From Chloroflexota bacterium (GTDB taxonomy: Bacteria > Chloroflexota > UBA6077 > JACCZL01): 36,903 bases of DNA. This document shows, one piece after another, positions 572 to 36,903 of the stretch (position 1 is its first letter; each line of letters begins with the position of its first letter). Below the pieces are notes generated by a model. That model ran no database searches, was not told where the DNA came from, and worked only from the letters and a program-made list of their open reading frames with translations. Location: contig JADZEM010000044.1 of assembly GCA_020850535.1 (NCBI GenBank), positions 1 to 36,903 on the forward strand, read 5' to 3'. Both the position numbers and the translations under genes were made by a program.

Positions 572-606
572 CTCCGTGAGCTGACGTGGCCGGAAGCGGG
601 TGAACC

Positions 607-1928: not shown

Positions 1929-1931
1929 GCC

Positions 1932-2228: not shown

Positions 2229-2247
2229 GGCGAGAGAGGGACAGGCA

Positions 2248-3078
2248 ATGCCACTGAAGCAATACCGCCCGACATCACCTGGCCGGCGAGGCATGAGTGT
2301 CTCGACGTTCGAGGAGTTGACGAAGGGCAAGAAGCCGGAGCGCTCGCTCCTGGAGCCGCTCAAGAAGTCCGGCGGTCGCAACAACCTCGGGCGCATCTCG
2401 GTGCGGCACCGTGGCGGCGGCCACAAGCGGATGTACCGGATCATCGACTGGAAGCGCGACAAGCTCGGCGTGCCGGCCCGTGTCGTCTCCATCGAGTACG
2501 ATCCGAACCGGACGGCCCGCATCGCGCTGCTCCAGTACGCGGACGGCGAGAAGCGGTACATCCTGGCGCCGGTCGGTCTGAAGGAGGGTGCGCGGGTCAG
2601 CTCCGGCCCCGAGGCTGAGCTCTCGGCGGGGAACACGCTGGCCCTGCGGGACATCCCGACGGGTACCGTGATCCACAACATCGAGCTGAAGCCCGGCCGC
2701 GGCGGTCAGCTGGCCCGTGGGGCCGGCGCCTCGGCGCAGCTGATGGCGAAGGAAGGCGACTGGGCCCAGGTCCGGCTGCCGAGCGGCGAGGTGCGCCGGG
2801 TGCTGGTGGTCTGCATGGCGACCATCGGGCAGGTCGGCAACCCCGAGCACGCGACTCTCAGCCTCGGCAAGGCCGGACGCAGTCGGTGGCTGGGCATCCG
2901 GCCGACGGTTCGCGGATCAGTCATGAACCCGCGCGATCATCCCCACGGCGGCGGCGAGGGCAAGGCCCCGGTCGGCGGACAGCCGAAGACGAAGTGGGGC
3001 AAGCTCGCCTTCGGAAAGAAGACCCGCCGCAACAAGGATACGGACCGCTTCATCGTTCGCAAGCGCGGGAGCAAGTAG
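2248..3078 (+). CDS. rplB: 50S ribosomal protein L2
   Basis: L2 (276 aa) is a core 23S-binding protein required for peptidyl transfer and subunit association. The N-terminal [15 protein letters not shown], the [20 protein letters not shown] segment at about residues 50-70, and the C-terminal [18 protein letters not shown] with its conserved histidine cluster are all present. The ATG follows a GAGAGAGGGA binding site. Length and domain order are standard. Confidence 0.98.
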
Positions 3079-3081
3079 CCG

Positions 3082-3366
3082 ATGAGCCGCTCTACAAAGA
3101 AGGGGCCATATATTGACCCCAAGCTCTTCAAGAAGATCGATGGCCTGAACCGGCGCAACGCGAAGGAAGTGATCCGGACCTGGGCGCGGGACTCGTCGAT
3201 CTTTCCGGAGATGGTCGGGCACACGCTGGCGGTCCACGATGGCCGGCGGCACGTGCCGATCTACGTCACCGAGAACATGGTTGGGCACAAGCTCGGAGAG
3301 TTCGCGCCGACCCGGACCTTCCGCGGTCACACGGCGCGCGGCGAGAAGTCGAGCGGAGCGCGCTGA
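3082..3366 (+). CDS. rpsS: 30S ribosomal protein S19
   Basis: S19 (94 aa) forms a head complex with S13 and contacts the A-site tRNA. Recognised by [18 protein letters not shown] at the N-terminus, and by [19 protein letters not shown] and [20 protein letters not shown] further on. The gene begins 3 bases after rplB. It is followed by an inverted heptad-repeat element rather than the usual direct junction with rplV. Confidence 0.98.
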
Positions 3367-3372
3367 ACGAGT

Positions 3373-3456
3373 GGTCAGTCATCAGTGGTCAGTCATCAGC
3401 GGGTGATGCACTCGCGCCGCCGCACTGACAACTGACTACTGACGACTGATGACTGG
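3373..3456. repeat. Inverted heptad-repeat element, copy 1
   Basis: The spacer between rpsS and rplV is built from 7-base units. The left arm (3375-3399) reads TCAGTCA, TCAGTGG, TCAGTCA, TCAG. The right arm (3425-3455) reads CTGACAA, CTGACTA, CTGACGA, CTGATGA, CTG, the complementary series. The arms can fold into a long imperfect hairpin around a 25-base GC-rich loop. The right arm runs directly into the GGAGG of the rplV ribosome-binding site, so folding could affect rplV translation. A related copy lies at 7859-7941. Confidence 0.85.
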
Positions 3457-3463
3457 AGGAAGT

Positions 3464-3811
3464 ATGGCGGGGGTCGAAGTCCGAGCGGTCGCCCGAAATA
3501 TCAGGATGTCGCCGCAGAAGGTGCGGCGCGTATTGGATACTGTCCGAGGGAAGCGCGTCGGCGAGGCGCTGTCGATCCTGCGGTTCCTGCCTCACAAGGC
3601 GACGGAGCCGGTCGGGAAGCTGATTCAGTCGGCCTCCGCCAACGCCGAGAACAACTTCAACCTCGATCCCGACGAGCTGGTCGTCCTGCGGATCTACGCG
3701 GACGAGGCCCGGACGCTCAAGCGGTATCGCCCGCGTGCGCGTGGCCGTGCCAACCAGATCTTGAAGCGGTCCAGCCACGTGACGGTGGTCGTGAGCGAGC
3801 GGGAGGCGTAA
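3464..3811 (+). CDS. rplV: 50S ribosomal protein L22
   Basis: L22 (115 aa) lines the exit tunnel with L4. Core motifs are [20 protein letters not shown] at the N-terminus, RFLPHKA, and the beta-hairpin tip [20 protein letters not shown] near the C-terminus. The ATG at 3464 is preferred over one at 3449, because it follows GGAGGAAGT at ideal spacing and because the earlier codon lies inside the repeat. Its stop overlaps the rpsC start by one base (TAATG). Confidence 0.97.
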
Positions 3812-4659
3812 TGGGTCAGAAAGTCCACCCGATCGGGTTCCGACTCGGCGTCAACGTCGGCAACCGCCACGTCAAGGAGTGGCAGGGTCGCTGGTACGCC
3901 GACAAGGATTACACGAAGTTTCTCCACGAGGACCTGAAGGTCCGCCAGCTCATCATGGGCCGGCTGTCCGAGGCAGGCGTCTCGCGCGTGGACATCGAGC
4001 GGTCGGCGAATCAGATGACGGTCACGATCCACGCGGCGAAGCCGGGGATCGTGATCGGCAAGAGCGGCGTCAAAGTTGAGGAGCTGCGGCGCAGCCTGGA
4101 GACGATGACCGGCAAGCGTGTCCGCGTCACCATCCAGGAGATCCGCCAGCCGGAGCTTGACGCCTACCTGGTGGCCCGCAGCGTGGCCGACCAGCTGGAG
4201 CGGCGCGTCGCGTTCCGCCGAGCGATGAAGCAGGCCGTTGGCCGGGCGATGCGCTTCGGGGCGAAGGGCGTCCGGATCCAGGTGGCCGGCCGGCTCGGCG
4301 GCGCTGAGATGTCCCGGCGTGAGTGGGAGCGTGAGGGCCGCGTGCCGCTGCACACCCTGCGCGCCGACATCGACTTCGGCCAGGCCGAGGCGCGCACGAC
4401 GTTCGGCGTCATCGGCGTGAAGGTCTGGATCTACCGTGGCGACATCGCCTCGACCGCCCGCGTTGGCGGCGAGGGCTTCGCGGCGGCGGCGACGCGTGGC
4501 CGCAGCGGCCCGGCCCCACGGCCGGCGGCGGCTGCCGCCCCGGCAGTGCCTGTTGCGCCAGCCGCGCCGGCTGCTCCGGCCGCGCCGGCTGCTCCGGCCG
4601 CGCCTGCCGCGCCCGCTGAGGCTGCTCCGGACGCCGCGCCGAGCAGCGAGGAGTCCTGA
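3811..4659 (+). CDS. rpsC: 30S ribosomal protein S3 with long Ala/Pro tail
   Basis: S3 forms part of the mRNA entry site and helicase. The N-terminal [13 protein letters not shown], the KH domain with [15 protein letters not shown] at about residues 79-93, and the C-terminal [11 protein letters not shown] motif at about residues 203-213 are all typical. The protein is 282 aa, against about 220-235 for most homologues. The extra roughly 65 residues are a low-complexity Ala/Pro tail with tandem APA repeats ending in acidic residues (SSEES). The tail is encoded by repeated GC-rich triplets and could vary in length between strains. Confidence 0.97.
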
Positions 4660-4662
4660 CAG

Positions 4663-5094
4663 ATGCTGCAACCGAAGCGCGTCAAGCATCGCAAGATGCA
4701 TCGCGGCCACCGGCGCGGCATGGCGCTGGTCGGCAACGAGGTTTCGTTTGGTGAGTTCGGCATCCAGGCCCTGGAGCCGGGCTGGATCACCGCTCGGCAG
4801 ATCGAGGCCGCTCGCCGCACCATCACCCACCACCTCAAGCGCGGTGGGAAGGTGTTTATCCGGATCTTCCCCGACAAGTCGGTGACGGCCAAGCCGGCTG
4901 AGACCCGCATGGGCAGCGGTAAGGGCGCGCCAGACCACTGGGTGGCCGTGGTGCGCCCTGGCCGCGTGATGTTCGAGATCGCCGGCGTCCGCCAGGAGCT
5001 GGCGAAGGAAGCCCTGCGGCTGGCAGGCCACAAGCTGCCCGTCGGCACCAAGTTCGTTGTGAAGGAGGAGGTCGGCATTGGCGAAGGCGTCTGA
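4663..5094 (+). CDS. rplP: 50S ribosomal protein L16
   Basis: L16 (143 aa) organises the A-site side of the large subunit. The opening [19 protein letters not shown], the [24 protein letters not shown] segment, and the central [24 protein letters not shown] loop are diagnostic. The start is 3 bases after rpsC, and its end overlaps the TTG start of rpmC by 17 bases, as is common at this junction. Confidence 0.97.
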
Positions 5095-5284
5095 GCTCCG
5101 AGATCTGACTCAGGACCAGTTGGACGACCGCCTCCGCGAGCTCCGCGAGGAGTTGTTCAACCTCCGATTCCAGTACGCCACGAGGCAGCTCACGAACACC
5201 GCGCGGATCCGCGAGGTTCGGCGTGACATCGCCCGTGTGCTCACCCTCCAGCGGCAAGACGCGCTGGTCGGGGGCGGGGAGTAA
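5078..5284 (+). CDS. rpmC: 50S ribosomal protein L29
   Basis: L29 (68 aa) is a small two-helix protein near the tunnel exit. It contains [31 protein letters not shown] and [13 protein letters not shown], matching the family throughout. The TTG start at 5078 lies inside the end of rplP and follows a strong GGAGGAGG site, which explains efficient initiation at a weak start codon. Confidence 0.96.
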
Positions 5285-5289
5285 CGGTC

Positions 5290-5631
5290 ATGGCCGAGCT
5301 GCGACCTCATGAGCTGCGGCGGCGGACCAAGCAGGGCCGCGTCGTCAGCAACAAGATGGAGAAGACGGTCGTCGTCGCCGTCGAGTCGATGCGGAAGCAT
5401 CGGCTCTACGGCCGCAACGTCCGCCGGACCACCAAGTTCAAGGCCCACGACGAAGGGAACCGGTGCCAGATCGGCGATATCGTGATCATCGCCGAGTCTC
5501 GCCCGATCTCCAAGGACAAGCGGTGGACCGTGCGCGAGATCGTCAAGGAGACGATCGGCCCGGGTCTCGAAGTCCTGGCTGAGGAGCCGGAGGTCGCCCA
5601 GGCGACCGGCGCCGAGGAGGACGAGTCGTGA
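5290..5631 (+). CDS. rpsQ: 30S ribosomal protein S17 with acidic tail
   Basis: S17 is a primary 16S-binding protein with an OB fold. The core is clear: [19 protein letters not shown], the [20 protein letters not shown] segment, and [19 protein letters not shown]. At 113 aa it is about 25 residues longer than usual because of an acidic C-terminal tail ([16 protein letters not shown]). Its stop overlaps the GTG start of rplN by 4 bases (GTGA), implying coupling. Confidence 0.97.
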
Positions 5632-5999
5632 TCTACCCACAGACTCGCCTCCGGGTGGCGGACAACACCGGCGCCCGCGAGATCATGTGCATCCAGGTGC
5701 TGGCTGGCGGCAACAAGATCTACGCCGACGTGGGCGACATCATCGTCGCGTCGGTGAAGACGGCCCAGCCGGGCGGCGCGGTGAAGAAGGGCGACGTGGT
5801 CAAGGCGGTCGTGGTGCGAACGGCCAAGGAGTACGGCCGGCCGGACGGCTCGCACATCCGCTTCGACGACAACGCCGCCGTGATCCTCACGACGGACGCC
5901 AGCAACCCGCGCGGCACGCGCATCTTCGGCCCTGTTGCCCGCGAGCTGCGCGAGCGCAACTTCATGAAGATCATCTCGCTCGCGCCCGAGGTGCTCTAG
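5628..5999 (+). CDS. rplN: 50S ribosomal protein L14
   Basis: L14 (123 aa) forms part of the intersubunit bridge. It shows [20 protein letters not shown] at the N-terminus, [13 protein letters not shown] in the middle, and [20 protein letters not shown] near the end. The GTG start is chosen because the protein begins exactly there in homologues and because it overlaps the rpsQ stop. Confidence 0.98.
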
Positions 6000-6071
6000 C
6001 AGCGCGGACGGCGCGTGCGACCGACGTGCCCGGGCGGGTGTCTCGGCCAGGTCGGCCGACGAGGAGACCCT

Positions 6072-6398
6072 ATGGCAAACATCAAGCTCAAGCTGAAGCG
6101 CGGCGACACCGTCGAGGTGATCGCCGGCAAGAATAAAGGGAAGCGCGGGACGATCCGCGAGGTCCGCCCGGACAGCCAGCGCGTCATCGTGTCAGACGTG
6201 AACATCGTCAAGCGGCACATGAAGGCCGGCCGCCAGGGCCGGCAGCAGGCCGGGATCGTCGAGATCGAAGCGCCGATCCACATCTCGAACGTGGCGCTCG
6301 TCGATCCGAAGACCGACAAGCCGACGCGCGTTGGCATCCGGACCCTGCCAGACGGCACGCGGGTCCGCTTTGCCAAGCGGTCCGGCGAGCAGATCTGA
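6072..6398 (+). CDS. rplX: 50S ribosomal protein L24
   Basis: L24 (108 aa) is an assembly-initiating protein with a KOW domain. The KOW motif is visible in LKRGDTVEVIAGKNKGKRG at about residues 6-25, followed by VNIVKRHMKA and a GIVEIEAPIHISNVALVDP strand. The ATG at 6072 has a GGAGA site just upstream and gives the usual MANIKLKLKRGD start; an earlier in-frame GTG at 6015 would add a non-conserved leader. Confidence 0.97.
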   Translation: MANIKLKLKRGDTVEVIAGKNKGKRGTIREVRPDSQRVIVSDVNIVKRHMKAGRQGRQQAGIVEIEAPIHISNVALVDPKTDKPTRVGIRTLPDGTRVRFAKRSGEQI

Positions 6399-6414
6399 GG
6401 TAGGGTAGGCAGGG

Positions 6415-7011
6415 ATGGCTCAGAACAAGAAGCAAGCAGAGGACGGCGCGGCTCCCGCCGAGCGCGTCGTGCCGCGCCTGAAGACCCGCTACCTCGAAGA
6501 GGTGCGGCCGGCGCTCGTCAACGAGATGAGCTACGCGAACATCATGCAGGCGCCGCGCCTTGAGAAGATCGTCGTCAACATCGGTATCGGCGAGGCGATC
6601 TCGAACAGCAAGGCGCTCGACGCCGCCACCGGCGACCTTCAGGCGATCACCGGCCAGAAGCCGATCACCAAGAAGGCCAAGAAGTCCATCGCGCAGTTCC
6701 GCCTGCGCGAGGGCATGACCGTGGGCATCATGGTCACGCTGCGCGGCGACCGCATGTACGAATTCATGGACCGGCTCTGCAACGCCGCGCTGCCCCGCCT
6801 GCGCGACTTCCAGGGCGTGCCCACGAAGTCGTTCGACGGGCGCGGCAACTACTCGATGGGGCTCCGGGAGCAGCTGGTGTTCCCCGAGATCGACTACGAC
6901 AAGATCGACAAGCTGCGCGGCCTCGAGATCACGGTGGTGACCACCGCCCGCACCGATCAGGAAGGCCGGCGGCTGCTCGAGCTGATGGGCGTACCGTTCG
7001 CCAAGTCATAG
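6415..7011 (+). CDS. rplE: 50S ribosomal protein L5
   Basis: L5 (198 aa) binds 5S rRNA and contacts the P-site tRNA. The core begins near residue 21 with [15 protein letters not shown] and contains [36 protein letters not shown], and the C-terminal [21 protein letters not shown] segment. A polar 20-residue N-terminal extension makes it slightly longer than typical L5 (about 180 aa). The gene is followed by an unusually long, hairpin-rich gap before rpsN. Confidence 0.97.
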
Positions 7012-7244
7012 CCCCCTTCTGACGAAACTGGCGGCTCGTGGCGGAAGAACGCTTCCCCACGGAGCCGCTGAATCATTCATAATCAAGGGTTCGTCCCGTT
7101 CGGGACGGACTCGAACAGATATCCAACCCGTCTCGACACGAACGGCCATCACGACCGGGCGCGCTGCAGGCCAATGCAGCGTCTGGCCCGGCCTGGCCCG
7201 GTCCAGACCAACCGCCCGAAGATTCGGGTAGGGGAGAGCGATAG
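7012..7244 (+). promoter_or_regulatory. Hairpin-rich rplE-rpsN intercistronic region
   Basis: This 233-base gap has no plausible gene but carries a chain of inverted repeats. An 18-base pair of arms (7030-7047 with 7052-7069, one bulge on each side) closes an AACG loop. CGTCCCG/CGGGACG (7092-7098 with 7101-7107) sits within a GTTCG/CGAAC outer stem. CGCTGCA/TGCAGCG pairs 7162-7168 with 7175-7181. GTCTGGCCCGG/CCGGTCCAGAC pairs 7181-7191 with 7198-7208 (one mismatch). CCCGAA/TTCGGG pairs 7215-7220 with 7223-7228, just before the rpsN ribosome-binding site. The density suggests a structured leader, attenuator or mRNA processing site. Function is inferred only. Confidence 0.55.
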
Positions 7245-7442
7245 ATGGCGAAAGTCTCGATGATCGTCAAGACGAAGCGCCCGAGCGCCTTCAACACGGC
7301 GCATCCGGTGCGGGTTCGCAACCGCTGCGAGCGGTGCGGCCGGCCTCGGGCCTTCATGCGGAAGTTCGGTCTCTGCCGCATCTGCTTCCGCAAGCTCGCC
7401 CTCGAAGGCCAGATCCCTGGCGTCACGAAGTCCAGCTGGTAG
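7245..7442 (+). CDS. rpsN: 30S ribosomal protein S14, zinc-binding type
   Basis: S14 (65 aa) is the short, zinc-binding version found in many Gram-positive and related bacteria. Four cysteines (C28, C31, C44, C47) form two CxxC pairs in [20 protein letters not shown] and ICFRKLA. The C-terminal [11 protein letters not shown] is standard. The ATG follows a GGGGAGAG site. Its upstream region is the structured gap described separately, so it could be expressed differently from the genes before it. Confidence 0.97.
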
Positions 7443-7454
7443 GAGGGCGCTGCC

Positions 7455-7850
7455 ATGATGACTGATCCTATCGCCGATATGCTTACGCGCATTCGGAACG
7501 GTCTCCAGTCCCGCCATGCGGCCGTGGAGATGCCCGCGTCCAAGCTGAAGTCGGCCATTGCCGAGGTGCTCAAGGACGAGGGGTACATCAAGGGCTACTC
7601 GCAGTCCGGCGAGGGGCCGAGCAAGACCCTGAAGGTCGAGCTGCGGTACGTCGGCAAGAACGAGCCGGTGCTCTCCGGCCTCAAGCGCATCAGCAAGCCC
7701 GGCTTGCGGGTGTACGCCGGGGCGGAGGAGCTGCCGCGCGTCTTCGGCGGCCTTGGCACGGCCATCATCTCGACCTCGCGCGGCGTGATGAGCGGCGCGC
7801 AGGCGCGCAAGATGCGCGTCGGCGGCGAAGTGATCTGCCACGTCTGGTAA
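7455..7850 (+). CDS. rpsH: 30S ribosomal protein S8
   Basis: S8 (131 aa, or 130 if the second ATG at 7458 is used) binds the central domain of 16S rRNA. It has [19 protein letters not shown] at the N-terminus, a central [14 protein letters not shown], and the C-terminal [19 protein letters not shown] motif. AGGAGGG at 7441-7447 serves either of two adjacent ATGs; homologues usually begin at the MTDPIADML methionine (7458). The stop is followed at once by the second heptad-repeat element. Confidence 0.97.
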
Positions 7851-7858
7851 GTGAGCCG

Positions 7859-7941
7859 TCAGTGGTCAGTTTTCAGTCATCAGGAGCCGAGGCGCAGCGT
7901 GAAGCGCGCCTCTGACCACTGAGAACTGAGGACTGAGAACT
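7859..7941. repeat. Inverted heptad-repeat element, copy 2
   Basis: The rpsH-rplF spacer is again made of 7-base units. The left arm (7859-7886) reads TCAGTGG, TCAGTTT, TCAGTCA, TCAGGAG. The right arm (7912-7941) reads CTGACCA, CTGAGAA, CTGAGGA, CTGAGAA, CT. The 25-base loop is GC-rich. As in copy 1, the right arm ends directly against the GGAGG that serves the next gene (rplF). Shared unit, orientation, size and placement show that the two elements belong to one family. Confidence 0.85.
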
Positions 7942-7952
7942 CGGAGGAAGCA

Positions 7953-8504
7953 ATGTCTCGTATTGGACGTATGCCGATTCCACTGCCGGCCAACGTCAAG
8001 GTCGAAGTGGACGAGAACAACAACGTCGTCGTCGAGGCGGGTGGCAAGCGCCTGGAGCGCACCATCACGCCGGGCATGAAGCTGGTGCAGGAGGATGGCA
8101 CGCTGCGCGTCGAGCGGCCGTCTGAGTCGCGCGAGCACCGCTCGCTGCACGGCCTGACCAGGACGCTGGTCGCCAACATGGTGACGGGCGTGACGACGGG
8201 CTTCACGCGGCGGCTGGAGATCAACGGCGTCGGATACCGCGCGATGAAGGCTGGGGACATGATCATGTTCCAGGTCGGCTACTCGCATCCGGTCGGCTTC
8301 ATCGCCCCGGAAGGGATCACGCTGACTGTTGAGGGCAACAACCGCGTCGTGGTGACGGGCGCGGACAAGGAGCTGGTCGGCGAGACGGCTGCCCGCATTC
8401 GCCGGATTCGGCCCCCCGAGCCGTACAAGGGCAAGGGGATCAAGTACGCCGAAGAGGTCATCCGCCGGAAGGCCGGTAAGGCCGGCGCCAAGGGCAAGAA
8501 GTAG
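7953..8504 (+). CDS. rplF: 50S ribosomal protein L6
   Basis: L6 (183 aa) lies by the sarcin-ricin loop at the factor-binding site. Its two homologous domains are visible: [16 protein letters not shown] and [19 protein letters not shown] in the first, and [20 protein letters not shown] then [19 protein letters not shown] in the second. The C-terminus ends in a lysine-rich KAGAKGKK. The ATG follows a strong GGAGGAAG site abutting the heptad repeat. Confidence 0.98.
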
Positions 8505-8512
8505 GAGCAGCC

Positions 8513-8878
8513 GTGTTCAAGCGACCAGATTCCCGTGGGTTGCGCCTGAAGCGGCACCGCCGCATTCGGCGCATCCTGAGCGGCACCACCCAGCGCCCGC
8601 GGCTGGCGGTGTACCGCTCGCTCGCACACATCTACGGGCAGATCATCGACGACGTCGCCGGTTCGACGCTGGTGGCGGCCTCCGACGTGGAGGCCGCGCT
8701 CAGGAACGGCGACGGCGGCTCGAAGAGCGATCGCGCGAAGCAGGTCGGCCAGCTGTTGGCCGAGCGCGCCAAGGAGAAGGGCATCACGACGGTCGTGTTC
8801 GACCGTGGCGGCTTCCTCTATCACGGGCGCGTGAAGGCACTGGCGGACGGGGCTCGCGAGGGCGGCCTCGAGTTCTGA
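8513..8878 (+). CDS. rplR: 50S ribosomal protein L18
   Basis: L18 (121 aa) binds 5S rRNA with L5. It shows [20 protein letters not shown] at the N-terminus, [17 protein letters not shown], and the C-terminal [20 protein letters not shown] and AREGGLEF. The GTG start 8 bases after rplF gives the usual N-terminal length, with GTAGGAGC as the likely binding site. Confidence 0.97.
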
Positions 8879-8900
8879 GGCCCGTCAGTGGGGCCGTACG

Positions 8901-8918
8901 GGCTCACCAGGGTGAGCC
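8901..8918 (+). promoter_or_regulatory. Perfect palindrome in the rplR-rpsE spacer
   Basis: GGCTCACC and GGTGAGCC form perfect 8-base arms around AG. The hairpin lies 19 bases before the rpsE start, just upstream of its GGAGAG binding site. No T tract follows, so a role in mRNA stability or translation is more likely than termination, if it has a role. Confidence 0.35.
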
Positions 8919-8936
8919 TGCGACGCAGGAGAGACA

Positions 8937-9473
8937 ATGCCAAGAATTGACCCCACAGGGCTGAACCTCGAAGAGCGGGTCGTCAAGATCAACCGCGTGG
9001 CGAAGGTGGTCAAGGGCGGTCGGCGCTTCAGCTTCAGCGCGCTGGTCGTCGTTGGCGACGGCAACGGCGTGGTCGGCGTGGGCCTCGGCAAGGCGAACGA
9101 GGTGCCGGATGCCATCCGCAAGGGCGCCGAGATCGCCAAGAAGCACCTGGTGCGAGTGCCGCTGGAAGGCACGACGATCCCGCACCCGATTCTGCAGGAC
9201 TTCGGCGCGGCCAAGGTGATGATGCGCCCGGCCGCCCCTGGCGCTGGTGTGATCGCTGGCGGCTCGGTGCGGGCCGTCGTCGAGCTGGCCGGCGTCCGCG
9301 ACATCCTGACCAAGTCGCTCGGGAGCCGCAACCCGGTCAACCTGGTGCAGGCGGCCCTCGAAGCGCTCAAGAACCTCCGGGAGCCGGAGGAGGTGGCGCG
9401 GGTGCGCGGCAAGGATGTCAGCCAGCTGCTGCCGCAGCGACGAAGGAGCGCAGCAGATGCCGTCCCAGTCTAG
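8937..9473 (+). CDS. rpsE: 30S ribosomal protein S5
   Basis: S5 (178 aa) contributes to the decoding centre and the mRNA entry helicase. The double-stranded RNA binding part is seen in [20 protein letters not shown] and [18 protein letters not shown], and the C-terminal domain in [36 protein letters not shown] and ALEAL. The last 17 bases overlap the start of rpmD. Confidence 0.98.
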
Positions 9474-9669
9474 TCTGAAAATCACGCTCATCAAGAGCCC
9501 GATCGGCCAGAAGCAGCGTCAGAAGGACACTGCCCGCGCCCTCGGTCTCCGCAAGATGCACCAGACCGTCATCCGCCCCGACAACCCGCAGATGCGCGGC
9601 ATGGTGTTCGCCATCCAGCATCTGGTGCGCGTCGAGGAGGTCGATGGGCCGGCCGGGGGAGACGAGTAG
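9457..9669 (+). CDS. rpmD: 50S ribosomal protein L30
   Basis: L30 (70 aa) is a small protein at the large-subunit surface. It has [20 protein letters not shown] at the N-terminus followed by [20 protein letters not shown] and a final HLVRVEEV strand. The ATG at 9457 is inside the end of rpsE and is preceded by GAAGGAG at suitable spacing; an earlier in-frame start at 9415 would give a non-conserved leader. The TAG stop is immediately followed by the rplO ATG. Confidence 0.96.
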
Positions 9670-10134
9670 ATGAAGCTGCACGAGCTGGCGCCCCCGCCGG
9701 GCGCCCATCGCCGCCGCCGACGTGTCGGTCGCGGTCTCGGCTCCGGCCGGGGCACGACGGCCGGCGCAGGCCAGAAGGGCCAGAAGGCCCGGGCTGGCGG
9801 CGGCGTTCCTCCGTATTTCGAGGGTGGCCAGCTGCCGCTGGTCAAGAAGCTGCCGTATCGGCGGGGCTTCCGCAGCCTGAACCGCGTCGAGTACAAGGCC
9901 GTCAACCTGCAGGATCTCGCCAGCTTCGCGGCTGGGTCCACCGTGGACGCGGCGGCGCTGGTCGCCGGGGGCGTCCTCAAGAACACCCGCGAGCGCATCA
10001 AGATCCTCGGGACGGGCGAGCTCGACCGCGCGCTGACCGTGAAGGCCCACCGTTTCTCTGCATCCGCCCGCCAGAAGATCGAGGCGGCTGGGGGAGCCTG
10101 CCATGCCCTCGAGCATGCTTCAGGCGCTGACTAA
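9670..10134 (+). CDS. rplO: 50S ribosomal protein L15
   Basis: L15 (154 aa) binds 23S rRNA in the middle of the large subunit. The basic N-terminus (HRRRRRVGRGLGSGRGTTAG), the GQKARAGGGVPPYFEGGQLP segment, and the C-terminal KAHRFSASARQKIEAAGG are typical. The gene starts with no gap after rpmD, and its last 32 bases overlap secY in another frame. The extreme C-terminus after EAAGG is not conserved. Confidence 0.97.
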   Translation: MKLHELAPPPGAHRRRRRVGRGLGSGRGTTAGAGQKGQKARAGGGVPPYFEGGQLPLVKKLPYRRGFRSLNRVEYKAVNLQDLASFAAGSTVDAAALVAGGVLKNTRERIKILGTGELDRALTVKAHRFSASARQKIEAAGGACHALEHASGAD

Positions 10135-11410
10135 CGCCTTCCGGATTCCGGATCTCCGCCAGAAGCTCCTGTTCACGCTGGGGCTTCTGGTCGTTTTCCG
10201 GTTTATCGCGCACGTCCCGATGCCGGGCGTGAATCTGGCTGCCCTGGATCGGCTGTTCGAGGAGAACCAGTTCATCGGGTTCCTCGATCTGTTCTCGGGT
10301 GGTGCGCTGGCCAGCTTCTCGATTGCCGCGATGGGCGTGTACCCGTACATCACGGCGTCGATCATCATGCAGCTGCTGGTGCCGGTGATCCCCCGCCTGA
10401 CCGAGATCTCGAAAGAGGGCGAGTCCGGGCGGAACAAGATCAACCAGATGACGCACTGGCTGACGGTGCCGCTGGCGCTGGCGCAGGCGTACGGCACGCC
10501 GCAGCTGCTGAACGCGTCCTCGCGCGAGCCGATCATCACGAACTTCGGCTTCGGGGTCAACCCGCTGGGCACGCTCTCGATCATGATCACGATGACGGCG
10601 GGAACGCTGTTGCTGATCTGGGTCGGCGAGCTGATCTCGCAGTACGGGGTTGGCAACGGCATCTCGATGATCATCTTCGGCGGCATCGTGGCGCGGCTGC
10701 CGTCCCAGATCGGGCAGGCGCTGGCGACGGACACCGCGCTGATCTCGGTCCTGATCTTCGCGGTCCTGGCCTGTATCACCATCGCGGCCATCGTCTACAT
10801 CTACGAGGGCCAGCGGCGGATTCCGGTCCAGGTCGCCAAGCGCATTCGCGGCTCGCGGATGGTGGGCGGCCAGACCACGCACATTCCGTTGAAAGTGAAT
10901 TCGGCGGGCATGATCCCGCTGATCTTCGCGCAGTCGATTCTGATCTTCCCTGGAACCGTCTCCGGCTACTTCCTCGGCGCTGAGAACGAGTGGGTGCGGT
11001 GGGTGGCTGAGGGGGTGCACAACTTCTTCAACCTCCAGGGCAGTTGGGGCTACTGGATCATCTACTTCTGGCTGGTGGTGGCGTTCACGTTCTTCTACAC
11101 GCTGGTGATCTTCCAGCAGCAGAACATCGCCGAAAACCTCCAAAAGCAGGGTGGGTTCATCCCGGGCATTCGGCCAGGACGGCCGACCGCGGAGTACCTG
11201 TACCGTGTATTGATGCGTATCACGCTGATCGGGGCGCTGTTCCTGGGCGTGATCGCGGTGCTGCCATTCCTGGTGCGAACAGTCACGGGCGTGCAGACGC
11301 TGTCGCTGGAGGCGACGGCGATGCTGATCGTGGTGGGCGTCGGGCTGGACACGATGCGCCAGCTTGAGTCTCAGCTCCTGATGCGGCACTACAAGGGCTT
11401 TATTCGCTAG
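10103..11410 (+). CDS. secY: Protein translocase channel subunit SecY
   Basis: SecY (435 aa) forms the protein-conducting channel in the cytoplasmic membrane with SecE and SecG. The N-terminal IPDLRQKLLFTLGLLVVFRF, the plug region IGFLDLFSGGALASFSIAAM with GVYPYITASIIMQLL, and the cytoplasmic loop KRIRGSRMVGGQTTHIPLKV are characteristic, and about ten hydrophobic segments are visible. The start codon lies within rplO (32-base overlap), preceded by a GGGGGAG site, which implies coupling to L15. Confidence 0.98.
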   Translation: MPSSMLQALTNAFRIPDLRQKLLFTLGLLVVFRFIAHVPMPGVNLAALDRLFEENQFIGFLDLFSGGALASFSIAAMGVYPYITASIIMQLLVPVIPRLTEISKEGESGRNKINQMTHWLTVPLALAQAYGTPQLLNASSREPIITNFGFGVNPLGTLSIMITMTAGTLLLIWVGELISQYGVGNGISMIIFGGIVARLPSQIGQALATDTALISVLIFAVLACITIAAIVYIYEGQRRIPVQVAKRIRGSRMVGGQTTHIPLKVNSAGMIPLIFAQSILIFPGTVSGYFLGAENEWVRWVAEGVHNFFNLQGSWGYWIIYFWLVVAFTFFYTLVIFQQQNIAENLQKQGGFIPGIRPGRPTAEYLYRVLMRITLIGALFLGVIAVLPFLVRTVTGVQTLSLEATAMLIVVGVGLDTMRQLESQLLMRHYKGFIR

Positions 11411-11518
11411 CGTGCGATGATGCACGCGCCACGGGAGGACGGCATGGCAGCCGCCCAACTTCAGGCGTCGACGATGACGCGGGCGTCTACGAGTATGTGC
11501 AAAGAACGGGGCGAGTGT

Positions 11519-12178
11519 GTGAGCGTCGTATTGATGGGGCCGCCCGGAGCGGGGAAGGGGACGCAGGCTGGGACTGTTGCGCGTCTCGTGAACGCCGCGC
11601 ATGTTGCCAGTGGCGACATGTTCCGGGAGATCATCAAGACCGACACGGAGCAGGCTCGTCTGATCAAGTCCTATATGGACCATGGGGAGCTGGTGCCAGA
11701 CTCGCTCACCCTGGACATGGTGATGGCGCGGCTGGATCAGGATGACGCGAGCAACGGCTTCATCCTCGATGGCTTTCCGCGCACCGTCACGCAGGCGCGG
11801 GCGCTCGAGGCCCGGCTGGCGGCGACGAACCGGCGGATCGATTGCGTCATCAATCTGGCCGTCCCTCGGGACGTGTTGTTGGCGCGCCTGTCTGGGCGGT
11901 GGCTCTGCCGGAAGTGCCACTCCAGCTACCACCTGCTGTTCAGCCCGCCGAAGGTCCAGGGCGTCTGCGACCGGTGTGGCGGCGAGCTGTATCAGCGGAC
12001 TGACGACACCCTGGAGACGGCGCGGCGGCGACTCGAAGTCTACGAGTACGCCACGCAGCCGGTGTTGCAATACTACCGGAACCGCGGCCTGCTGGTGGAC
12101 GTGCGGGGAGATCAGTCGGTCGAGGAGGTCACGGACGCGCTGCGTGAGGCAGTTCTCACGAAGCGTGAGACATTGTGA
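11519..12178 (+). CDS. adk: Adenylate kinase, zinc-lid type
   Basis: Adenylate kinase interconverts ATP+AMP and 2 ADP. The P-loop GPPGAGKGTQ is at residues 7-16, the AMP-binding SGDMFREI at about 31-38, and the GFILDGFPRT motif at about 80-89. The LID contains two CxxC pairs (C130/C133 and C150/C153), the zinc-binding form common in Gram-positives and relatives. A GTG at 11519 is chosen because it places the P-loop at the usual distance from the N-terminus (219 aa). An upstream in-frame ATG at 11417 would add 34 unconserved residues. The usual map gene does not follow. Confidence 0.95.
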   Translation: MSVVLMGPPGAGKGTQAGTVARLVNAAHVASGDMFREIIKTDTEQARLIKSYMDHGELVPDSLTLDMVMARLDQDDASNGFILDGFPRTVTQARALEARLAATNRRIDCVINLAVPRDVLLARLSGRWLCRKCHSSYHLLFSPPKVQGVCDRCGGELYQRTDDTLETARRRLEVYEYATQPVLQYYRNRGLLVDVRGDQSVEEVTDALREAVLTKRETL

Positions 12179-12232
12179 TATACTTGCCTGTTGGTGCGCC
12201 CACCGTGGTTCATGATGCCTCGGAGGGCGCGC

Positions 12233-12451
12233 GTGCCTGGCGCTGAAGCCTCCGATGTCGACGGCACGGTGGTCGAGGCGCTCCCGAATGCTCGGTTCCG
12301 CATTGAACTGAGCGATGGGAGCCAGGTGGTTGCCCATGTGTCGGCGGGGCTGCGCCTGGGTGCGGGGCGGATCATTCCGGGAGACCGGGTCCGCGTTGCC
12401 CTCTCGCAGTATGACCGCTCACGCGGACGGATCACGCATCGCGCGCGGTGA
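12233..12451 (+). CDS. infA: Translation initiation factor IF-1
   Basis: IF-1 binds the ribosomal A site during initiation. The OB-fold sequence DGTVVEALPNARFRIELSDG, then VVAHVSAGLR, PGDRVRVALSQYD and RGRITHR matches the family. The GTG at 12233 gives exactly 72 residues, the standard length, and has GGAGGG 5 bases upstream. Earlier in-frame ATGs (12212, 12215) would add an arginine-rich leader absent from homologues. The gene follows adk directly, without map. Confidence 0.93.
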   Translation: MPGAEASDVDGTVVEALPNARFRIELSDGSQVVAHVSAGLRLGAGRIIPGDRVRVALSQYDRSRGRITHRAR

Positions 12452-12621
12452 CGAGGTTTCGCTGGGGCGACGCATCGGGCAGGGGCGAGGGCGGCGCGGC
12501 TGCCCCAGGTCGAGACTGGCAGGACGTAGACAGGCTTCAAAGACGGCAGCGCCGACAGGCAGGATGGCCCCCGAGGTCTTCAGGCAGCGCGGCAGCTCAG
12601 CACAGCAGGATGTGAAGGGTC

Positions 12622-12735
12622 ATGAAGGTACGAGCGTCTATCAAGCCCCGCTGCGAGCGGTGCAAGATCATCCGCCGGAAGGGCGTGGTCCTGATCATCT
12701 GCAACAACCCCAAGCACAAGATGAAGCAGGGCTAA
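12622..12735 (+). CDS. rpmJ: 50S ribosomal protein L36, zinc form
   Basis: This is a 37-aa protein beginning [15 protein letters not shown] and ending [12 protein letters not shown]11, C14, C27 and H32 form the zinc-binding CxxC...C...H set of the C+ type of L36. The position between infA and rpsM is the standard one, and the ATG has a GAAGGG binding site. The 170 bases between infA and this gene show no other feature I can support. Confidence 0.96.
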
Positions 12736-12828
12736 GGTGAGGCTGGGCGCGGCGGCCTGCGCGGCGCCGGCCCACACCGCGGTTTCAGCGTAGACACAAC
12801 GGGTCAGGAAAGGCACGGAGGACAGAGC

Positions 12829-13212
12829 ATGGCGCGTATCGCCGGTGTCGATATTCCTCGTGACCGCCGCGTGGTCGCTTCGCTTCCGGTGATCTACGGG
12901 ATCGGGCCGACGACCGCCGAGCGGATCCTCAACAAGGCGAACATCAGCCACGACAAGCGGGTGCGGGATCTCTCCGAAGAGGAAGTGAACCGCCTGCGCG
13001 AGATCATCGACCGCGAGTACGTGGTGGAGGGCGACCTCCGCCGCGAGGTCAACCTGAACATCAAGCGGCTGATGGAGATCGGCTGCTACCGTGGCCTCCG
13101 CCACCGGCGCAACCTGCCGGTGCGCGGCCAGCGCACGCGGACGAACGCGCGGATGCGGAAGGGGCCTCGCCGGACGGTGGCTGGCCGCCGCAAGGCATCG
13201 GCGAAGAAGTAG
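12829..13212 (+). CDS. rpsM: 30S ribosomal protein S13
   Basis: S13 (127 aa) contacts the P-site tRNA and pairs with S19. It has [20 protein letters not shown] at the N-terminus, [13 protein letters not shown], and the basic C-terminal [20 protein letters not shown] followed by [12 protein letters not shown]. The ATG has a GGAGGACAG site. A 144-base gap follows, containing only a small palindrome (TACGAC/GTCGTA, 13321-13334) just before the rpsK binding site. Confidence 0.98.
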
Positions 13213-13356
13213 GACCGAGACCGGGCAGCTGCCTGCGGCCGCCACGGGCCAGTTCTGGCTCGTGGCGCTCGTGCTGTCAGTGCGGCGCGACGAACGACGT
13301 CGGCGCCCGGCCCATCCCCGTACGACCCGTCGTAGGAATCATTCAGGAGGCCTCGA

Positions 13357-13755
13357 GTGGCGGAGCGAAGGCGTGGCCCGGCCCGGGCCCGGCGGCGTGA
13401 GCGCAAGAATGTGCCGGCCGGCCGCGCATACATCCAGTCCAGTTTCAACAATACGCTGGTGACGATCACCGACCCGCAGGGCAACGCGCTGTGCTGGTCC
13501 AGCTCCGGCGCGGCCGGCTTCAAGGGCTCGCGCAAGAGCACGCCGTACGCGGCCGGCCTGGCGGCCGATTCTGCCGCGCGCAAGGCGATGGAGCACGGCA
13601 TGCGCCAGGTGGACGTCTTCGTCCGTGGCCCCGGCTCGGGGCGCGAGGCGGCCATCCGCTCGTTGCAGGCGGCCGGTCTCTCGATCAGCTCGATCGTGGA
13701 TCACACCCCGATCCCGCACAACGGCTGCCGCCCGCCGAAGAAGCGGCGCGTCTAG
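13357..13755 (+). CDS. rpsK: 30S ribosomal protein S11
   Basis: S11 (132 aa) lines the mRNA exit channel on the platform. The sequence includes [40 protein letters not shown], and the end [25 protein letters not shown], all diagnostic. The GTG start is preceded by AGGAGG (13345-13350). Normally rpsD follows; here only a degenerate remnant does. Confidence 0.98.
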
Positions 13756-13756
13756 G

Positions 13757-13943
13757 CTTTCCCGGTTGCTGGTCGGGCTGGCCGGCGACCATCAAGATCA
13801 GGGCTGAATCTCGCAGCACGTCAGCCCAACACCTGTGTGTGTCCAGCGGCACGTGCGAGCGTGGCCCACACTGGAGCAACGGCTCCCTACAGACCTCAGT
13901 CCTGATCTACGAGCAGCTGGTCGTCGATCGCTATTCGCGCTAA
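13757..13943 (+). pseudogene. rpsD: Decayed C-terminal fragment of ribosomal protein S4
   Basis: No intact S4 gene is present in the slot between rpsK and rpoA, but the 187 bases after the rpsK stop encode S4-like pieces. In frame from 13769 reads LVGLAGD. After one extra base (13790), the frame starting at 13791 reads IKIRAESRSTSAQ. Together these resemble the S4 segment with pattern LV..GD.I.VR..SR. The same frame continues through GPHW at the distance where S4 has its conserved PW, and ends at 13911-13943 with EQLVVDRYSR and a stop, close to the usual S4 end EQLIVEFYSR. About 14 internal residues and all of the N-terminal two-thirds are missing. A working rpsD must lie elsewhere. The identification rests on short motifs read by eye. 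Confidence 0.6.
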
Positions 13944-14028
13944 CGGACCACTCGGCCTGGCAGCACGGCGCGCGGAACCGTCCCGCGCCCGCGCCGCGCC
14001 GCCGCCCGTCCGGGAGGAGGCCCACACC

Positions 14029-15051
14029 TTGTCAGAAACTATCGTCGCGAAAGTCGACGCCCTTCACACGTCCGAGGACTTTGGCCGCTTCCAGGTTGAG
14101 CCGCTGGAGCGTGGCTACGGCCTGACGCTCGGCAACGCGCTTCGCCGCGTCCTGCTCTCCTCGCTCGCTGGCGCTGCCGTCACCCAGGTGAAGGTGGACG
14201 GCATCTACCATGAGTTCGCGACCCTCCCCGGCGTCAAGGAGGACACGACGGAGCTGATCCTCAACCTGAAGCAGCTCCGCTTGAAGTCGTACACGGATCA
14301 GCCGACGCAGTTGCGCCTGATCGCCTCCGGCCCGGGCATCGTCACTGCCAGCGACCTGATCTATCCGAGCGAGATCGAGATCGTCAACCCCGAGCTGTAT
14401 CTCGCGAGCCTGGACAGCGCCGATGCTCGCCTGGAGATGGAGCTGACCGTCGAGAAGGGCAAGGGCTTCCGCTCCTCTGACGGCCGCGAGCCGCCGTCCC
14501 TCGGCGTGATCCCCGTCGACGCGATCTTCTCGCCGATCCGGCGGGTCAACTACCGCGTCGAGAACACCCGGGTGGGCGAGCGGACGGATCTCGACAGCCT
14601 GATCATCGAGATCCAGACGGACGGCACGATCTCCCCGATGGATGCGCTGGTGCAGGCGGCGACGCTGCTGATCGATCAGTTCAGCGTCTTCACGGACCTG
14701 CAGGCGCCCCAGCGGCGGGCTGACCGGGGCACGCTGGCGACGGGCTCGATCCCCAGCCACATCCTCGATATGCCCATCGAGCAGCTGGATCTCTCGCAGC
14801 GGACCTACAACTGCCTCAAGCGGTCCCAGATCACCAAGGTGGGGCAGGTCATGCAGATGAGCGAGGACGAGCTGCTCTCGCTCAGGAACTTCGGGCAGAA
14901 GTCGCTGGAAGAGCTGCGCGAGCGGCTGCGACAGCACGGCCTGCTCACCGAGGATGCCGAGAGTGAAGGCGCGACCGCCACGGTTGTCGGCGACCGCGAT
15001 GGAACTGATGACCTCGTGTTCGACATGTCGGACGACGAGGACGACGAGTAG
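14029..15051 (+). CDS. rpoA: RNA polymerase alpha subunit
   Basis: The alpha subunit (340 aa) nucleates RNA polymerase assembly and contacts promoters and activators. The N-terminal domain has GRFQVEPLERGYGLTLGNAL RRVLLSS at about residues 19-45 and the KGRG-like KGKGFRSSDG at about 143-152. The C-terminal domain has IEQLDLSQRTYNCLKRSQI and LRNFGQKSLEELRERL. The TTG start at 14029 has GGGAGGAGG upstream and gives the usual N-terminus. A short acidic tail (DDEDDE) ends the protein. Confidence 0.97.
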   Translation: MSETIVAKVDALHTSEDFGRFQVEPLERGYGLTLGNALRRVLLSSLAGAAVTQVKVDGIYHEFATLPGVKEDTTELILNLKQLRLKSYTDQPTQLRLIASGPGIVTASDLIYPSEIEIVNPELYLASLDSADARLEMELTVEKGKGFRSSDGREPPSLGVIPVDAIFSPIRRVNYRVENTRVGERTDLDSLIIEIQTDGTISPMDALVQAATLLIDQFSVFTDLQAPQRRADRGTLATGSIPSHILDMPIEQLDLSQRTYNCLKRSQITKVGQVMQMSEDELLSLRNFGQKSLEELRERLRQHGLLTEDAESEGATATVVGDRDGTDDLVFDMSDDEDDE

Positions 15052-15063
15052 AGCGGAGGAGTC

Positions 15064-15417
15064 GTGCGTCACAACATGGGCGGCCGGAAGCTGAACCGGC
15101 CGACGGATCATCGCCTCGCGCTGATCCGCAACCAGATCACCGATCTTCTTCGCTACGAGAAGGTCCGGACCACCGAGGCCAAGGCGCGCGAGCTGCGCCG
15201 CGAGGCCGAGAAGGTCATCACCCTCGCCAAGACCAACGACGTGCACCATCGGCGGCTGGCGCTGACGAAGGTGTACGACCCGCGCGTCGTCACCAAGCTG
15301 TTCGACGAGCTTGGCCCGCGCTTCGCAGACCGGCCCGGCGGCTACACCCGGCTCATCAAGCTGATGCCCCGCAAGGGTGACGGCGCGGCGATGGCCCAGG
15401 TGGAGCTCGTTCTCTAG
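15064..15417 (+). CDS. rplQ: 50S ribosomal protein L17
   Basis: L17 (117 aa) lies near the tunnel exit. It has RHNMGGRKLNRPTDHRLALI at the N-terminus, LLRYEKVRTTEAKARELRRE, and the C-terminal GGYTRLIKLMPRKGDGAAMA. The GTG start has a GCGGAGGAG site 3-4 bases upstream. It follows rpoA closely, as in most bacteria. Confidence 0.98.
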   Translation: MRHNMGGRKLNRPTDHRLALIRNQITDLLRYEKVRTTEAKARELRREAEKVITLAKTNDVHHRRLALTKVYDPRVVTKLFDELGPRFADRPGGYTRLIKLMPRKGDGAAMAQVELVL

Positions 15418-15427
15418 CCTGGCGCTG

Positions 15428-16315
15428 GTGGACGCCGACGGCGCGGCGACGCGCACGCTGCGGCTCGACCTGGCCTACGAGGGTACACACTATCACGGGT
15501 TCGGACGACAGCCGAACCGACGGACCGTGCAGGAGGTGCTAGAAGAGGCGCTCGCCCGATCGCTGGGGGAGCAGGTGCGGGTGACACCGGCCGGCAGGAC
15601 CGACGCCGGTGTCCACGCGGATGGCCAGGTCGTCAGCTTCACGACGCGGGGTCGCCTCGCGCCGCCAGAGCTGCTCCGAGCCGTCAACGCGTACCTTCCC
15701 CACGACGTGCTCGTGCATGGCGCGGCCACGATGCCGCCCACGTTCGACGCACGCAGGTCGGCCCTTCGCCGCCACTACCGCTACCTCATCTGGCGTCGGC
15801 GACTGCCCCACCTCTGGTGGCGGCGGTGGGCCTGGCACCAGACGGACCGTCTCGATCTCGCGGCCATGCAGGCCGCCGCGGATCGGCTGGTTGGCACGAG
15901 CGACTTCGGCAGCTTTGCGGGACACCGCTCCCAGGATCCAGCCGGGCGCACGACGACCAGGACGGTGGAGCGGGCACAGTGGTGGCAGGACGGCAGCCTG
16001 ATCGGGTTCGAGATCACGGCGAACGCCTTCCTGCGGCACATGGTTCGGGGGATGGTCGGGACGCTGGTCGAGGTGGGCCGAGGCCGCCTCGACCCTGCAC
16101 AATTCAGCGCGATTGTGCAGGCGGGAGATCGGCGGCAGGCCGGCCCGAACGCCCCGCCGCACGGACTCACGCTGGTCAGGGTAGACTATCCCGCGCAGTT
16201 TGAAGCAGCCGTAGACGAATCAGCAGCGCAAGAACCGTACAGTGGGTTTCCCGGGCGAGCATGGTGCCCCGGAAGCCCGGGCAACCACATCGGGCCGATC
16301 CTCCATCCCTGCTGA
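15428..16315 (+). CDS. truA: tRNA pseudouridine38-40 synthase TruA
   Basis: TruA isomerises uridines 38-40 in the anticodon stem of tRNAs. The catalytic aspartate is D59 in AGRTDAGVHADGQV. The N-terminal LDLAYEGTHYHGFGRQPNRR TVQ, a central FDARRSALRRHYRYLIW, and the later NAFLRHMVRGMVGTLVEVG RGR are typical. A GTG at 15428, 11 bases after the rplQ stop, gives the usual N-terminus; an in-frame GTG at 15377 lies within rplQ. The last 45 or so residues after VRVDYP are not conserved in the family and may be a genuine extension. The placement rplQ-truA-rplM-rpsI is common. Confidence 0.93.
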   Translation: MDADGAATRTLRLDLAYEGTHYHGFGRQPNRRTVQEVLEEALARSLGEQVRVTPAGRTDAGVHADGQVVSFTTRGRLAPPELLRAVNAYLPHDVLVHGAATMPPTFDARRSALRRHYRYLIWRRRLPHLWWRRWAWHQTDRLDLAAMQAAADRLVGTSDFGSFAGHRSQDPAGRTTTRTVERAQWWQDGSLIGFEITANAFLRHMVRGMVGTLVEVGRGRLDPAQFSAIVQAGDRRQAGPNAPPHGLTLVRVDYPAQFEAAVDESAAQEPYSGFPGRAWCPGSPGNHIGPILHPC

Positions 16316-16375
16316 CGGCAGCGGGGATGTGACCGGCGGCAGACGCGCGACTGGCGTGTCATGAGGAGAGACAGG

Positions 16376-16825
16376 ATGCAGAAGACATTCTCGCCGAAGG
16401 GGAAGGAGATCACGCGCAACTGGCACGTGATCGACGCCTCCGGCGTGCCGCTCGGGCGGCTGGCGTCCCAGGTCGCGCAGCTGCTGCGGGGCAAGCACAA
16501 GCCAACGTTCGCCCCGCACCTGGACAGCGGCGATCATGTGGTCGTCTTGAACGCCACCAACGTCGTGTTGACGGGCGCGAAGATCGATCAGAAGACGTAC
16601 TACCGCCACTCTGGCTATCCGGGCGGCTTCCGGGCCACCTCGGTGCGTTCGGAGCTGTCGAAGCGGCCGGAGCGTGTCATCGAGCGGGCCGTGCGCGGCA
16701 TGGTGCCGAAGACGGCGCTCGGGAAGCAGCAGCTGGGGCATCTGCACGTCTACGCGGGCAACACGCATCCGCATCAGGGTCAGGTCGCCCAGGCCGCGAC
16801 CGGGGCTGAGGAGGCCACATCGTGA
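16376..16825 (+). CDS. rplM: 50S ribosomal protein L13
   Basis: L13 (149 aa) is an early assembly protein of the large subunit. It has [20 protein letters not shown] at the N-terminus, [38 protein letters not shown], and the C-terminal [24 protein letters not shown] 16376 with AGGAGAG upstream is preferred over an ATG at 16361 that overlaps that site. Its stop overlaps the GTG start of rpsI by 4 bases. Confidence 0.97.
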
Positions 16826-17229
16826 GGGATCGGAGCGCCGGTCGGAACCAGTTTACGGCGGTTGGCCGGCGGAAGACGGCCATCGCCAAGGTGCTGCTGC
16901 AGCCCGGGGCTGGCAACGTCATCATCGACGGCAAGCCGCTGGAGGAGCGCTTCCCACGCCCGCTGCACCAGTTCCACATCACGCTGCCGCTCCGCCTGAC
17001 CAACACCATTGGTGCGTACAACGTGCTGGTGAAGGTGATGGGCGGCGGGGACACCGGGCAGGCGGGCGCCATCGTCCATGCGACGGCGCGCGCGCTGGTC
17101 AAGGCCGACGAGTCCCTGAAGCCGGCTCTGCGTGGCGCTGGTCTGCTGACCCGCGACCCGCGCATGAAGGAGCGGAAGAAGTACGGCCTCAAGCGGGCCC
17201 GCAAGGCGCCGCAGTACACCAAGCGGTAA
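16822..17229 (+). CDS. rpsI: 30S ribosomal protein S9
   Basis: S9 (135 aa) reaches the P site with its C-terminal tail. It has [20 protein letters not shown] at the N-terminus, [20 protein letters not shown] in the centre, and the end [24 protein letters not shown], whose terminal lysine-arginine contacts tRNA in the family. The GTG start overlaps the rplM stop (GTGA). It is the last gene of the ribosomal cluster and is followed by a strong terminator hairpin. Confidence 0.98.
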
Positions 17230-17305: not shown

Positions 17306-17352
17306 CCGCCGCCAGCGACAAGAGATGATCTATGACGGACACCGGTACGATT

Positions 17353-17549
17353 GCATGTGCGTTGGTGTTCCCAGAACGCGGCAAGACGCTCAGACGGGGG
17401 TTGAAACCCCCGCCTACCGTCACACCGTCGCTGCGCGACGGACGCCGAGAACGGTTGGGACTGGTGAACCAGGAGCGTCGCGCAGCGACTGCAGGATGGT
17501 AGGCGGGGCTTTCAAGCCCCGACGTGGCTGCACGACGAGACCAGCATGC
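17353..17549. repeat. 197-bp palindromic MITE-like element, copy 1
   Basis: This 197-base element is colinear and without gaps when compared with 36707-36903. It runs from GCATGTGCGTTGGTGTTCCC to GACCAGCATGC; GATTGCATG at the left edge and CATGCAATC at the right edge are inverted. Inside, two half-elements face each other. The left has GGGGGTTGAAACCCCC, GCCTACCGTC and GTCGCTGCGCGAC; the right has GTCGCGCAGCGAC, GGTAGGC and GGGGCTTTCAAGCCCC. Each half holds two short hairpins, and the halves can pair with each other. No transposase is encoded, so any mobility would be in trans. It occupies most of the gap between rpsI and the next gene. Confidence 0.8.
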
Positions 17550-17585
17550 AATCCCTCTGGCTGACTGGTGAGCGAGAGGTGTCCC

Positions 17586-36641: not shown

Positions 36642-36706
36642 CTGCAAAGGTCCATCCCAGCGTGGCCGGTCATCTCCACGATACCGTAGCCCCTGGCAGG
36701 GCGATG

Positions 36707-36903
36707 GCATGTTCATTGGTGTCCCCGAAGCATCATGGAACGGGCGGTCGGGGACTGAAGTCCCCGCCTACCGTCACGCCGTCGCTGCGCGACGGCCGTG
36801 GGGAACGGCAGGCACTGGTGCGACTGGCGCGTCGCGCAGCGACGGCAGGAGTGTAGGCGGGGCTTTCAAGCCCCGACGCGGCGGCACGACGACATCAACA
36901 TGC
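36707..36903. repeat. 197-bp palindromic MITE-like element, copy 2
   Basis: This copy is colinear with 17353-17549 over its full 197 bases. It runs from GCATGTTCATTGGTGTCCCC to CATCAACATGC at the window edge, so sequence beyond is unseen. Shared blocks are CCCCGCCTACCGTCAC, CCGTCGCTGCGCGACGG, GCGTCGCGCAGCGAC and GTAGGCGGGGCTTTCAAGCC; other positions differ, often by changes that keep the hairpins (for example GGGGACTGAAGTCCCC against GGGGGTTGAAACCCCC). It abuts the 5' side of the DUF433 chimera, so that gene's promoter may lie inside the element. Confidence 0.8.

Follow-up and report, generated by a model that had tools for sequence, protein, structure and literature searches.

The window analyzed here is a stretch of 36,903 nucleotides that forms one entire contig (C44) of a 7.65-Mb Chloroflexota genome assembled in 227 contigs. 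It contains two similar palindromic elements, which raises the question of what kind of repeat they represent and by what means it was moved. A first-pass annotation had placed two 197-bp copies at 17353-17549 and 36707-36903 and suggested either an undescribed MITE or a REP-type family moved by a transposase elsewhere in the genome. The positions and colinearity of the copies, which lie 19,354 bp apart, were confirmed, as was their gap-free alignment (82% identity over 164 nt), and their folding energies of -109.4 and -118.2 kcal/mol correspond to z-scores of -6.85 and -6.88 relative to shuffled sequences, with 0 of 200 shuffles as stable. The 197-bp length had to be revised, because the contig stops inside copy 2. 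The true element is 217 bp, extending 10 bp beyond the left edge originally placed and 10 bp beyond the right edge of copy 1. Copy 1 (17343..17559, plus strand) is therefore a full 217-bp element, recognized from a pair of terminal inverted repeats (TIRs) 217 bp apart with no more than 3 mismatches per end and from its end-to-end alignment with 18 other full copies, while copy 2 (36697..36903, plus strand), likewise placed by alignment, retains 207 of the 217 bp and has lost its right TIR at the contig end. The GATTGCATG...CATGCAATC edges previously proposed as TIRs do contain TIR sequence, but only the inner part of a 15-bp TIR, CAGGGCGATTGCATG. By TIR search and alignment, the left TIR of copy 1 (CGGTACGATTGCATG; 17343..17357, plus strand) has 3 mismatches to this sequence, its right TIR (17545..17559, minus strand) is decayed, and the left TIR of copy 2 (CAGGGCGATGGCATG; 36697..36711, plus strand) has a single mismatch. 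The ends of copy 1 are decayed and a target duplication is lacking, as the flanks differ at 10 of 10 positions. The right flank of copy 2 falls beyond the contig end, and a search of the rest of the assembly for the expected end plus duplication pattern returned nothing. It should be noted that copy 1 directly follows an rpsI-like ORF, downstream of what we take by eye to be a long series of ribosomal-protein-like ORFs together with secY-, adk-, rpoA-, and truA-like ORFs (204-17229). Copy 2 overlaps a 138-aa ORF on the minus strand (36300-36716) that presumably encodes a DUF433-type small protein; the start of the longest ORF falls within the left TIR of this copy, and the real start is probably further in.

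The annotation would have been refuted had these been the only two copies in the genome, but there are hundreds. A pattern for the core of the outer arms matched 696 times (350 forward and 346 reverse), corresponding to ~350 elements, while the reversed pattern gave 0 and 0 matches. An initial whole-genome listing, in which 40 of 488 candidates were scored, had yielded at least 110 element matches. The exact 15-bp TIR occurs 337 times (187 + 150), again with none for the reversed-pattern control. Even these numbers are probably a lower bound: an element lies within 400 bp of 30 of 67 contig starts, compared with 18 of 1140 random inner stretches, and because contig starts are so rich in it, the assembly seems to break at the element. 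Beyond this genome, the outer-arm pattern was found in none of the 60 relatives among the 61 genomes searched, which included the host itself, and the exact TIR was found only twice among the 60, in both cases in the genome G001 and at the two ends of a single ISAs1 element. In a wider scan of contigs, a set that may omit records very near this genome, 17 stretches from unrelated taxa carried one or two matches each, which we read as probable chance occurrences. A scan of viral contigs, which may have the same omission, returned one stretch that appeared unrelated by eye, and no Rfam family matched the window at gathering thresholds. Given these numbers, an ordinary segmental duplication or an assembly artefact within the window is hardly credible, even though two colinear copies in one window, one of them stopping exactly at a contig end, would look much like one. 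The copies have fixed ends and unrelated flanks, all 65 full-length copies examined are distinct, and segmental duplication is ruled out by the copy number together with the exact 10-bp target duplications described below.

To define the element, we used a sample of TIR pairs drawn from 141 loci (2,163,152 bases), which is partly biased, as its first 20 loci and some later ones were picked for known hits and the rest are mostly contig starts. In this sample, 62 TIR pairs give a modal element length of 217/218 bp, which together with the 15-bp TIRs places the element within the usual MITE dimensions (~70-300 bp with TIRs of ~15-30 bp). The target duplications that the annotation had proposed to look for were present: 24 of 75 monomers away from edges are flanked by an exact 10-bp duplication, rising to 28 of 75 when one mismatch is allowed, and in the remaining 47 a recognizable duplication was lost or never present. 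The signal is specific to both length and position, as lengths of 5-14 other than 10 yielded no exact duplications in the same 75 monomers except for one at 11, and at most 1 exact duplication remained when the right end was slid by 1-5 bp. Pairing the left and right flanks of different elements gave 34 exact matches in 15,000 draws, partly from dimers with recurring spacers. One of the flanked copies splits a phosphonoacetate hydrolase gene (L089:16542-17933), the two halves of which match TIGR02335 separately (best stretches 1-114 and 211-407 of 408). This is a rare event, since the copies are almost exclusively intergenic; after joining the flanks, this gene was the sole coding-like case among 43 duplication-flanked sites, compared with 1152 of 2000 random sites. 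Shorter forms of 86-108 bp also occur (L089:15303-15388, L096:11324-11410, L028:102-209, L098:12608-12715, and others), and 4 of 17 short forms retain an exact 10-bp duplication. Among them are 7 TIR pairs 108 bp apart, and those inspected by eye have only one hairpin left, which is what a deletion running from one arm to the other would produce, so the short forms probably arose by internal deletion. TIR-like ends were also found 2-5 kb apart, which are possible larger elements. The MITE has no transposase gene of its own, as 217 bp is too short for one and there are only 2 PF13808 loci genome-wide for ~350 elements. From the copy number, TIRs, exact target duplications, and the insertion sequences with matching ends described next, we conclude that the suggestion of an undescribed MITE was correct. 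Elements of this kind are known, but the family is new and its cargo unusual, and no prior description of an ISAs1-ended MITE was found in the open-access literature searched, as judged mainly from titles and the beginnings of abstracts.

Which transposase moved the MITE is indicated by its ends. Insertion sequences of the ISAs1 family are described as having inverted repeats of 14-22 bp starting with CAGGG and a 10-bp direct repeat (PMC11946415, as excerpted), and a published member, ISArsp11, is listed with the inverted repeat CAGGGCTGATGCAAAGTCG and a 10-bp direct repeat (PMC6305408, as excerpted). The MITE has both features, with the 15 bp of CAGGGCGATTGCATG falling within this size range and starting with the same CAGGG. 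The annotation's proposal of a transposase elsewhere in the genome holds insofar as ISAs1 transposase sequences are present, but these are only broken relics, at C136 and C187, the ends of which match the MITE TIR at 13 of 15 positions. A third, lone ISAs1-type end was seen by eye near L072:11712. A transposase gene with truly matching ends was found instead in G001, which belongs to the same family but another genus. At both ends of its 1,256-bp ISAs1 copy (L120:1418-2673), 15 of 15 positions agree with the MITE TIR, and the translated protein of 406 aa aligns with NF033564 along the entire profile. This copy has no target duplication, and its reading frame overruns the right end, which suggests that it is damaged. 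Another ISAs1 copy, in G004 (L121:1390-2634), is flanked by an exact 10-bp target duplication like those of the MITE. These NF033564-type insertion sequences are otherwise unlike the MITE, being 1.2-1.3 kb in length with a transposase gene and an unrelated interior; since no match is visible beyond the 15-bp end, the MITE did not arise from these copies by simple deletion. No intact ISAs1 transposase was found in the host genome beside the two broken copies, though one could be missing from the assembly, which is 96.3% complete and breaks at repeats. An ISAs1-family DDE transposase would have acted in trans on the 15-bp ends with a 10-bp target stagger, and this mover is probably dead or lost, or else unassembled.

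The interior of the MITE consists of two outer GTAG-tagged REP-like hairpins placed symmetrically around two inner hairpins. In copy 1, the left outer hairpin and its GTAGGC tag, which reads inward, occupy 17396..17417 on the minus strand (by arm match and stem pairing), and the right outer hairpin with its tag occupies 17499..17520 on the plus strand (by arm match). Between them, the left inner hairpin GTCGCTGCGCGAC (17427..17439, plus strand) and right inner hairpin GTCGCGCAGCGAC (17477..17489, plus strand), placed by their offsets, show conservation of 0.998 and 0.983, respectively, in 65 elements. In copy 2, the outer hairpins with their tags lie at 36750..36771 (minus strand) and 36853..36874 (plus strand) by arm match, while the inner hairpins at 36781..36793 and 36831..36843 (both plus strand) follow from the gap-free alignment to copy 1. 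With the elements turned to a canonical orientation, most left outer hairpins are of the ACT/AGT or GTT/AAC type, with copy 2 belonging to the former subfamily and copy 1 to the latter, and nearly all right ones are CTT/AAG.

This cargo brings up the second suggestion of the annotation, a REP-type family, here in the form of a REP/BIME family whose GTAG-tagged palindromes a RAYT (Y1) transposase would mobilize as single-stranded DNA. GTAG REPs, according to the available text (PMC3733652), carry a GTAG tag and a stem of 6-9 bp with a TY loop, fall into subfamilies with complementary stems, are paired tail to tail at distances of 20-100 bp, and are mostly intergenic. The outer arms here combine a GTAG tag with a 7-bp stem and a TC loop; they too form subfamilies with complementary stems and are arranged tail to tail. 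Thus, a short tagged stem-loop of this type, complete with complementary variants of the stem, is present, but neither free units nor a RAYT were found. PF01797 (Y1) had 0 matches in the host genome, while 5 of 14 control genomes were positive. The same source does report some REP hosts without RAYT. The hairpins occur only inside the ISAs1-ended element: a TIR accompanies 272 of 276 arms on the outer side, with 2 of the other four at edges and 2 without a TIR, and GTAG hairpins outside the elements are no more common per tag than the control (69 of 10,476 compared with 167 of 26,828 for GATG). Moreover, the ends and 10-bp duplications are of the DDE type. We therefore regard a REP/RAYT origin as highly improbable; it was rejected on the absence of PF01797 matches and the near-absence of free arms.

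The annotation had also pointed to compensatory differences between the two copies. This hairpin pair was confirmed, and the unit of change is each small hairpin, as opposed to the large palindrome. Of 79 cores, collected from the first 1.27 Mb with a pattern that itself covers some hairpin positions, 73 have full pairing in both local stems, whereas 4 have a fully paired arm-to-arm palindrome. Likewise, in a 20-row alignment hand-chosen from the sample, to which both window copies belong, covariation is seen in the local hairpins (score 0.092, with 0 of 500 shuffles as high), while that of the long-range structure (0.018) was equaled or exceeded by 119 of 500 shuffles. Selection on the large arm-to-arm palindrome accordingly finds no support.

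What maintains the small hairpins after insertion is a separate matter. In 65 full-length elements located by their ends alone (median identity 0.848), private mutations affect 7 of 58 hairpin sites, compared with 18 of 30 TIR sites, 8 of 12 tag sites, and 45 of 117 other sites. The hairpins differ from the TIRs at p = 0.00015 and from the other sites at p = 0.0018 (binomial, assuming independent sites and copies, which the dimers slightly violate), and an earlier subset of 48 elements gave the same direction. The tag recurs as a word just as often as the hairpins do and yet decays, which speaks against an artefact of read correction. Furthermore, when arms are anchored outside the hairpin, 258 of 270 have perfect stems. 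This slow decay, the perfect stems, and the near-restriction to intergenic sites would all be compatible with selection on each inserted copy, acting for instance on RNA stability, on termination, or on a DNA site bound by a protein, in a family co-opted by the host. There is, however, no preference for gene orientation: 56 classed monomers (20 more lie at edges) comprise 35 tandem, 12 divergent, and 9 convergent cases, in about the proportions of the element-free intergenic length (191,938 : 65,333 : 67,698), according to a home-made gene finder. A terminator role was rejected by the same comparison, as there is no excess between convergent genes, a result that is indicative only. In addition, the GTAGGC tag next to the hairpin decays freely, and the loops look mutational in character, since two of the same 270 arms have both loop bases inverted and, two length-variant arms apart, none has a single loop-base change. 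Template switching (PMC8794818) predicts perfect stems as well as whole-loop inversions, while selection predicts perfect stems only. Thus, of the earlier proposal of selection on structure or folding-dependent mobility, the former is possible, though we consider it somewhat unlikely as the keeper of the hairpins, and the latter finds no support here, while template-switch correction explains the hairpins at least as well as selection does. Template switching during replication would most likely keep the short palindromes self-complementary, thereby protecting or correcting the hairpins after insertion.

The MITE also occurs as head-to-tail dimers. For 39 of 49 neighboring element pairs, the spacer is 10 bp, with one spacer sequence occurring 15 times and another 8 times, and an exact 10-bp duplication surrounds the whole dimer in 10 of 16 dimers. 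A dimer would form by insertion beside an existing copy, such that its spacer is apparently the fossil target duplication of the founding insertion, and the recurring spacers and outer duplications indicate that dimers are then recognized at their outer ends and travel as a single unit. Taking the evidence together, we consider it very likely that the family is a non-autonomous DNA transposon spread in trans by an ISAs1-family DDE transposase, with a hairpin cargo that is protected or corrected after insertion and dimers that move as a unit. More tentatively, a REP-like hairpin pair may have been captured between ISAs1 ends and multiplied to ~350 copies, with the hairpins outlasting the ends via the palindrome correction of replication; the genome might then record template-switch repair, or genome-wide selection, in hundreds of replicates.

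Of the most similar systems known, QMITE2 of Coxiella burnetii (PMC5896051) is a precedent for a MITE carrying a GTAG REP, and it resembles the family here in its length of 150-190 bp, TIRs, and direct repeats of 7-11 nt. It differs in its copy number (~50), its sequence, and its REP, which is a target of IS1111, and the accessible portion of that report mentions no link to ISAs1. The Chunjie MITE of Geobacter uraniireducens, as described in the accessible portion of the review PMC10969869, is likewise comparable in having 235 bp, TIRs, direct repeats, a mostly intergenic location, and size variants, but has 38 full and 57 partial copies and a different sequence. What is unusual here is that ISAs1 ends, hundreds of copies, and a REP-like cargo are combined with hairpins slower to decay than the ends.

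These results tie a high-copy MITE to ISAs1 ends and suggest that GTAG-tagged REP-like hairpins may multiply via a DDE transposase without a RAYT, which bears upon how REP-like repeats spread. The fossil duplication inside the dimers provides a marker by which composite transposition can be traced. Finally, the hundreds of diverged copies make it possible to test whether mutation alone can give rise to compensatory hairpin changes, which are usually taken as proof of selection on RNA.
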